Positions 1,445 to 38,680 of a stretch of DNA of 64,000 nucleotides are shown piece after piece (position 1 is the stretch's first letter; every line of letters begins with the position of its first letter). The translations under genes were made by a program, and so were the position numbers. The DNA is from Amphibalanus amphitrite (Eukaryota; Arthropoda; Thecostraca; Balanomorpha; Balanidae): positions 62,001 to 126,000 of the forward strand of contig NW_024882903.1 in assembly GCF_019059575.1 (NCBI RefSeq), read 5' to 3'. Below the pieces are notes generated by a model that was not told where the DNA came from, ran no database searches, and was given only the letters and a program-made list of their open reading frames with translations.

Positions 1445-1958
1445 GTGTGCTGCTTTACGGCCGCTAACCCGTGCCTCTGTGTCTGTCCAGGTGTACTGCC
1501 GTACCGCCGCCAACCCGTGTCCCTGTGTCTGTTCAGGTGTACTGCGGTACCGCCGCTAACCCGTGCCTCTGTGTCTGTCCAGGTGTACTGCGGTACCGCC
1601 GCTTACCCGTGTCTCTGTGCCTGTTCAGGTGTACTGCGGTACCGCCGCCAACCCGTGTCCCTGTGTCTGTTCAGGTGTACTGCGGTACCGCCGCTAACCC
1701 GTGTCTCTGTGTCTGTTCAGATTTATGTACTGCGGTACCGCCGCTAACCCGTGTCTCTGTGTCTGTTCAGATTTATGTACTGCGGTACCGCCGTTAGCCA
1801 CTGCCTCTGTGTCTGTTCAGGTGTACTGCGGTACCGCCGCTAACCCGTGTCTCTGTGTCTGTTCAGGTGTACTGCCGTACCGCCGCTAACCCGTGTCTCT
1901 GTGTCTGTTCAGGTGTACTGCGGTACCGCCGCTAACCCCTGTCCCTGTGTCTGTTCAG
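1445..1958 (+). repeat. Tandem array of the exon 1 splice acceptor
   Basis: About eleven copies of a unit of roughly 46 bp (a few are 51 bp with an ATTTAT insertion) run head to tail into the exon. Each unit ends in a pyrimidine-rich stretch and CAG (CTGTGTCTGTTCAG), and the next unit starts with GTGTAC, which are also the first six bases of the real exon. Every unit is therefore a near-perfect copy of the acceptor plus the exon's first two codons. Only the last copy continues into conserved coding sequence at 1959. Confidence 0.85.
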
Positions 1959-2062
1959 GTGTACCAGTTTCCCGGGTACGACACCGCGCTGCTGTCTGCC
2001 CGCGGCGCGCTGCTCACTGTCGCGGGTCTGACCAAGCAGATCTCAGGGGATACTCCGGTCAG
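1959..2062 (+). CDS. INTU: inturned exon 1 of window
   Basis: This exon encodes residues 1-34 of the visible protein, VYQFPGYD through SGDTPV, and ends two bases into a codon. The acceptor is the last of a tandem series (CTGTTCAG) and the donor is GTGAGT. The sequence matches the start of the first longin-like region (ARGALLTVAG in place of the family's RG-x-LTL pattern). It starts in phase 0, so it needs an upstream exon ending in phase 0, which is not in the window. Confidence 0.8.
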
Positions 2063-38635: not shown

Positions 38636-38680
38636 CTTCGCGTGACCTGGCACGGGCCGCGATGACCTCGCGACCGGACA
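38612..38680 (+). repeat. Duplication of the stop-codon segment
   Basis: GGCACCGGGCCGCGATAACT at the stop codon is followed by GGCACGGGCCGCGATGACCT about 33 bp later, and a weaker third piece follows. The coding end is thus tandemly duplicated into the 3' UTR. Confidence 0.6.

Follow-up and report, generated by a model that had tools for sequence, protein, structure and literature searches.

Minisatellite-like tandem repeats lying across exon/intron boundaries are known from amphioxus as "mirages"; they are described in Adh3, the globin genes BflGb6 and BflGb9, troponin C, and PGBD5, where regular splicing is reportedly undisturbed and a route to intron gain is proposed, and two haplotypes of BflGb6 are described with 6 and 3 units, respectively (PMC3087553, PMC3902484). 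Gain of introns via tandem duplication of splice signals is the Rogers model, as cited in PMC3087553. Furthermore, repeat expansion multiplied introns in Cryptococcus CNN00420, with whole near-identical introns gained (PMC2395259); in human genes, new introns may arise from internal tandem repeats located at a boundary between exon and intron (PMC2812944); and dual-specific AGGT splice sites occur in the tandem repeats of human UBC (PMC10809524).

Here we describe repeats of this kind in the inturned gene (INTU) of the barnacle Amphibalanus amphitrite, in a window (i.e., the whole stretch of DNA analysed) of 64,000 nt. The copy adjoining the unique exon sequence is called live, and all others are called spare. 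By the features tested, namely boundary span, presence on both sides, and AG/GT retention, the barnacle arrays qualify as mirages: as in the amphioxus descriptions, each unit takes in bases of both exon and intron together with the boundary between them (in seven arrays here), 5' and 3' boundaries are both affected, and AG or GT is kept in many but not all units (intact in 61 of the 63 spare copies here, counting the seven arrays and one copy each at exons 11 and 16). Mirage haplotypes differ in unit number; in the barnacle, exon 13 of INTU differs between two annotated proteins of the species, which may reflect a similar variation in units. The amphioxus mirages belong to a cephalochordate, whereas the present arrays belong to a barnacle, in which seven arrays and two old duplications are gathered in one gene with up to 21 spare copies; two of these arrays show a silent-site bias, of which the passages on amphioxus mirages make no mention. 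With Rogers-type intron gain INTU shares a tandem duplication containing splice signals, but it is an existing intron's own border that is multiplied here, and no new intron is seen. The CAG|GT found in most exon 1 units, each in principle dual-acting, is likewise reminiscent of UBC, whereas the repeats in UBC encode ubiquitin monomers and are variably spliced, and the outer sites in the barnacle are putative sites. The phenomenon itself is known, as amphioxus mirages; new are its occurrence in a barnacle, the number of junctions concerned in a single gene (nine), and a pair of arrays whose copies differ mainly at third codon positions. Literature searches, judged from titles, returned no report of junction-spanning repeats in a barnacle.

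Junction arrays in the inturned gene

From its start to 38.7 kb, the window holds the 3' part of INTU, and all INTU features given below are on the + strand. Our gene model has 17 exons in the window, 16 introns that are all GT-AG, and one open reading frame of 632 aa ending at 38635. Over its full length, this frame is 100% identical to "protein inturned-like [Amphibalanus amphitrite]" (P0001, 848 aa), the remaining 216 residues of which are coded upstream of the window, and a Pollicipes relative shows 64% identity. The frame also matched Intu_longin_2 in Pfam (4.6e-23) and three solved "Protein inturned" chains (E 4.1e-51 to 1.7e-48). The gene model is sound, and the 17-exon inturned gene claimed in the preliminary description is borne out by the frame, the protein match, the Pfam domain, and the solved chains. 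The model places exon 2 at 6717-6806, exon 6 at 17044-17106 (no junction array in the alignment), exon 8 at 21978-22027, exon 9 at 22428-22529, exon 10 at 23761-23843, exon 12 at 32383-32551, exon 14 at 33958-34049, and exon 15 at 34746-34920; the other exons are given with their repeats. Within the length limits of the search, neither the exon 1-8 part nor an array-derived peptide matched any other proteins.

Seven minisatellites cross splice junctions of INTU, as seen by TRF and by splitting the arrays into units: two at acceptors (exons 1 and 7) and five at donors (exons 3, 4, 5, 7, and 13). All six exons for which head-to-tail arrays containing exon bases and the working splice signal had been claimed do have them, exon 7 is flanked on both sides as proposed, and the seven arrays support the general claim that splice junctions have been amplified in this gene.

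Exon 1, the first INTU exon within the window (1959-2062; gene model and protein match), has an acceptor array at 1431-1964 with a 46-50-bp unit containing six exon bases; its 11 spare acceptors all retain AG (11/11). At exon 3 (7109-7186), a donor array of a 22-bp unit with four spare copies spans 7168-7316, where TRF reported 7168-7241 and more copies lie at about 7268-7316. Exon 4 (11650-11833) has a donor array at 11794-12044 composed of 56-75-bp units, the live one and three copies, and exon 5 (16272-16325) has one at 16312-16387 (TRF) with a 19-21-bp unit, again live plus three copies, the last of which has lost GT. Both arrays of exon 7 (19206-19466; gene model and protein match) are long. 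Its acceptor array (18134-19265) has 90-96-bp units, each of which combines 30-36 intron bases (TCTGAC, a pyrimidine tract, and AG) with 60 exon bases; there are 11 full spare copies and one partial copy at 18134, the latter being excluded from the spare-copy count, and TCTGAC looks branch-point-like by eye. Its donor array (19445-20676; TRF start 19484, moved by hand to the live copy) consists of the live unit and 21 copies, 50-64 bp each, with a G-rich intron part. Finally, the donor array of exon 13 (33200-33269) lies at 33245-33638, with 39-, 46-, and 47-bp units in the live and eight further copies, in one of which GT is changed to AT.

Introner-like elements would place one element sequence at many unrelated genomic sites; outside the arrays, 16-mers of the seven arrays recur within the window only in the same neighbourhood, besides mutual matches of the two exon 7 arrays on opposite strands. 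Degenerate copies beyond an array are clear only beside that of exon 3 (0/300 shuffles); they are suggestive at exon 4 (p about 0.013), the exon 7 donor (0.040), and the exon 7 acceptor (0.057), and the same shuffle test found none beyond the remaining three.

More diverged repeats had also been claimed at exons 11, 16, and 17, and this holds for the first two as old two-copy donors. Exon 11 (31973-32077) has an old second copy of its donor 86 nt downstream (32112-32182; gapped alignment). A 14-nt repeat at 31971 was rejected as the junction duplication of this exon; it is mainly exonic, and the true duplication is that of the donor with 86-nt spacing. At exon 16 (35319-35422), gapped alignment finds a diverged second copy of the donor at 35449-35476, which none of 400 shuffles equalled, yet about 15% of intron positions match equally well. 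The repeat of exon 17 (38521-38635, with the stop codon) is a weak two-copy one (38623-38692; TRF and alignment; p=0.03) and lies across the stop codon, not at a splice junction.

Several other elements were noticed in the window by eye or as simple repeats. Intron 4 contains a TC microsatellite of about 79 copies at 14755-14911 (96% match). In intron 10, long inverted terminal-looking repeats at 24785-25010 and 28700-28900 suggest a roughly 4-kb DNA transposon and, nearby, another insertion. A 1441-aa open frame at 41491-45816 (+) has the look of a Ty3/gypsy-type retrotransposon, and similar flanking repeats near 40754-40985 and 45949-46183 have a 13-bp doublet in common. A pair of overlapping open frames (378 and 955 aa) at 53670-57670 (+) looks LINE-like and is followed at 57719-57836 by a tail that is a perfect (TC)59 run.

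Frequency of arrays at splice junctions

The preliminary description regarded the concentration of arrays on junctions as non-random. We treated each array with a period of 10 or more, merged by hand from the TRF output, as one seed dropped randomly into the collapsed gene; 8 of 30 arrays were on junctions against 0.99 expected (P=3.4e-6), and 5 of 11 when the score was 150 or more (P=9.8e-5). A stricter version, without transposon-rich stretches, the stop-codon array (removed by hand), and the exon 11 row that merely touches its junction, gave 7/23 (P=4.8e-5), 6/22 with exon 7 counted once (P=2.8e-4), and 5/11 at a score of 150 or more (P=3.5e-4). The outcome depends on the choice of rows, with about 1 expected and P spanning 3e-6 to 4e-4. 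Also, of the 11 arrays that lie no farther than 300 nt from a junction, 8 cover it, with the exon 11 row included, against 0.70 expected.

Tests on positions depend on the control. In 24-nt windows with at least 19 matching, 7 of 33 junctions are repeated. The share among intron positions is 5.2% when the junction arrays are left out (P=0.0013) and 13.8% when every intron position is counted (P=0.16); with this second control, P fell below 0.05 at 1 of 12 thresholds. Gapped alignment detected a nearby duplicate at 10/33 junctions and at 18/150 intron points, each more than 600 nt from junctions (P=0.012), and at a higher score the numbers were 8/33 and 17/150 (P=0.053). At A9, one of the junctions counted in this alignment, the score comes from an array that stops 10 nt away and does not reach the junction; a 21-bp x 4 array at 22334-22418 stops 10 nt short of the exon 9 acceptor and leaves that junction out.

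These results might mean that no special process is involved, i.e., that a minisatellite-rich gene has arrays covering junctions by chance and that the gene was selected for its pattern. All the enrichment tests indeed cover one gene that was picked because of the pattern, 12% of distant intron points (the 18/150 above) likewise have a nearby duplicate, and the comparison with all intron positions is significant at a single threshold of 12. When arrays are counted once, however, 7-8 of 23-30 are on junctions where about one is expected, and most arrays near a junction cover it; we therefore consider a chance origin doubtful. Tandem duplications abound in INTU, probably with a disproportionate share of them at junctions. 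The impression of non-randomness is thus upheld by the seed counts but not by the comparison with all intron positions, and for a single gene. Another argument in the preliminary description, that the true junction always lies at the exon-side edge of its array, is circular; the position is uninformative because the copy adjoining unique exon sequence is the "true" one by definition.

An excess on junctions would also be expected if a junction-specific mutational process, such as R-loops or G-quadruplexes at donors, stalled replication, or repair primed at junctions, created the tandem duplications. Five of the seven arrays are at donors, and on the coding strand, donors with an array exceed the remaining donors in G-richness (G4Hunter, 5 vs 11 donors, P=0.027), a comparison in which the live unit itself is counted. 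Against such a process, C/T-rich acceptors (G4Hunter -0.25) bear two of the arrays, one of which is among the two largest; a search for strict G4 motifs gave matches in two of the seven junction arrays; and donors 11, 15, and 16, although G-rich, show no more than old two-copy repeats. The R-loops invoked in the preliminary description thus gain some weak support from the G-richness of donors and are at odds with the acceptor arrays, and we regard a junction-specific process as unlikely. Tolerance of outer copies that are spliced out with the intron, which had also been offered, fails as the sole cause; it does not account for the excess over intron interiors because arrays are equally free to lie there.

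Splice-site choice and changes in spare copies

The annotated protein P0001 follows the exon-proximal copies exactly, and as judged from this annotation only, splicing would take place at the exon-proximal sites. Such a choice would be consistent with exon definition, given the long introns of this gene. When the use of each spare site is predicted, the frame is kept and open in 6 of 63 cases and is broken or runs into a stop in the other 57. The six are distributed as 2/3 at the exon 4 donor (+129 and +204), 1/11 at the exon 7 acceptor (the nearest one, -90), 1/4 at the exon 3 donor, and 2/21 at the exon 7 donor; no in-frame open site was found among the spare sites of exons 1 (0/11), 5 (0/3), 13 (0/8), 11 (0/1), and 16 (0/1).

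A second A. amphitrite protein, P0003 (FJT64_003821), is longer at exon 13 by 13 residues, VRGHVAGTWEIYR, which follow TWEIYR. Their length is that of one 39-nt unit read in frame, and they are similar but not equal to VRGNVADTWEIYR of the window. This supports the presence of the exon 13 array, with different units, in another assembly and does not imply the use of an outer donor. By eye, a segment of intron 9 at 23093-23280, just past a 39-bp array, also matches extra residues of P0003. While tandem repeats are hard to assemble, the unit variation in INTU is mosaic with distinct lengths, and the protein of the second assembly has the extra exon 13 unit; an assembly artefact is hence highly improbable.

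We then compared the spare copies with the live copy in the exon-derived part of the units, counting each distinct change, in six arrays. The exon 1 array was omitted from this codon test, its shared exon part being 6 nt and the copy caller being out of register (57 hits). In the exon 4 donor array, six of seven changes are silent and six are at third positions; in the exon 7 acceptor array, six of seven are silent and all seven are at third positions. Together, 12/14 changes are silent where 5.2 are expected (P=1.5e-4) and 13/14 are at third positions (P=4.4e-5), this pair being chosen post hoc from the six testable arrays. The absence of silent changes in the wrong frames follows from the third-position bias and is no separate evidence. 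The other four arrays (exons 3, 5, 7 donor, and 13) are at chance, with 3/14 silent changes against 3.0 expected, and the three changes seen at exon 13 each affect a first codon position. For all six arrays, 15/28 changes are silent against 8.2 expected (P=0.0035); not counted in these 28 are the 16 differences of exon 11, any in the partial copy (18134), and those in the exon-like end of the exon 7 donor units, where (around 19430-19445) live and spare copies differ by eye at apparently non-silent sites.

The isolated second copy at exon 11 has 16 differences in 52 nt of its exon part, which are spread over the three codon positions as 5/5/6 with five silent; this lone copy decays without coding constraint.

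The silent-site bias in two arrays, together with AG or GT being intact in nearly all spare copies, might be taken to mean that spare sites are functional and kept by selection as alternative sites, as a buffer for splicing, or for recursive splicing. Also in favour are three of the in-frame open sites, namely two spare donors of exon 4 (+129, +204) and the nearest spare acceptor of exon 7, and the in-frame extra exon 13 unit of P0003. This unit may reflect an annotation choice, however, the protein search gave no second isoform, and 57/63 spare sites break the frame or hit a stop, including 10 of 11 in the biased exon 7 acceptor array; use of the spare sites appears quite improbable. Translation of spare copies could be another candidate cause of the bias at exon 4, since two of its three spare donors are in frame and open; the frames of the exon 7 acceptor copies speak against it as the cause of the bias.

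Nor is a conveyor, in which copies age as they are fed outward from the live one, supported as a general description of the arrays; there is no significant trend of identity with distance in the five arrays other than those of exons 3 and 5. The exon parts of the four exon 4 copies, counted outward, have 0, 1, 3, and 5 differences from the live copy. Concerted evolution within a single live lineage was rejected as the full cause of the silent bias. In simulations of one selected live lineage with free exchange, with or without preference for the live copy as donor, the silent share was about 0.3 and 6/7 was reached in at most 1.5%; these results are for the 10 of 25 settings having at least 40 samples, and the "neutral live" rows were ignored as an unsuitable measure. 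An anchored live copy alone yields no silent bias in this simulation. When copies were instead seeded from live alleles with standing silent variation and were only briefly "dead", 6/7 or more silent changes were obtained in 92% (no divergence on the dead branch), 56% (0.2% per site), and 11% (1.6%). With the variation in the pool being our own input, this model suggests that such an origin would be sufficient for the bias. In this regard, 12 of 306 aligned residues differ between P0001 and P0003 (four of the 12 lie next to an intron whose annotation differs), which suggests high diversity in the species.

Proposed persistence of junction arrays

We favour the reading, with a probability of roughly 0.55, that the arrays of INTU are minisatellites of the mirage type that are kept at junctions by selection on one unit and are refreshed from live exons. 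A short tandem duplication over a junction would first add another splice site, intronward of the original. The duplication would be harmless when the spliceosome stays with the exon-proximal site and the outer copies are removed within the intron, and the junction array could then expand and contract as any minisatellite does. The live unit, being under purifying selection, would neither be lost nor be degraded and would remain as a seed; junction arrays may for this reason outlast those within introns. In longer arrays, the spare copies would be refreshed via exchange with live exons, including those of other alleles in a diverse population, and could therefore come to differ mostly at silent sites. 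Selection on one unit would thus explain one-sided growth into the intron, and the silent bias would be expected only with the added exchange among alleles. The array anatomy, the gene model, the silent bias of two arrays, and the unbiased decay of the lone exon 11 copy are observed; exon-proximal splicing, the copy exchange, and the anchoring role of selection are what we infer.

A wider and more doubtful proposal is that junctions throughout the genome act as undying minisatellite seeds anchored by selection, with spare copies continually rewritten from the live exons of other alleles, so that the arrays would form local archives of silent variation and a recombination-prone exon edge. If junction arrays are general in barnacles, mirage repeats would be no oddity of lancelets, and barnacles would offer a tractable system for the choice of the spliceosome among up to 22 near-identical splice sites. 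They would also allow one to ask by what path tandem duplication leads, or does not lead, to intron gain and whether an entire array is shaped by selection acting on a single unit.
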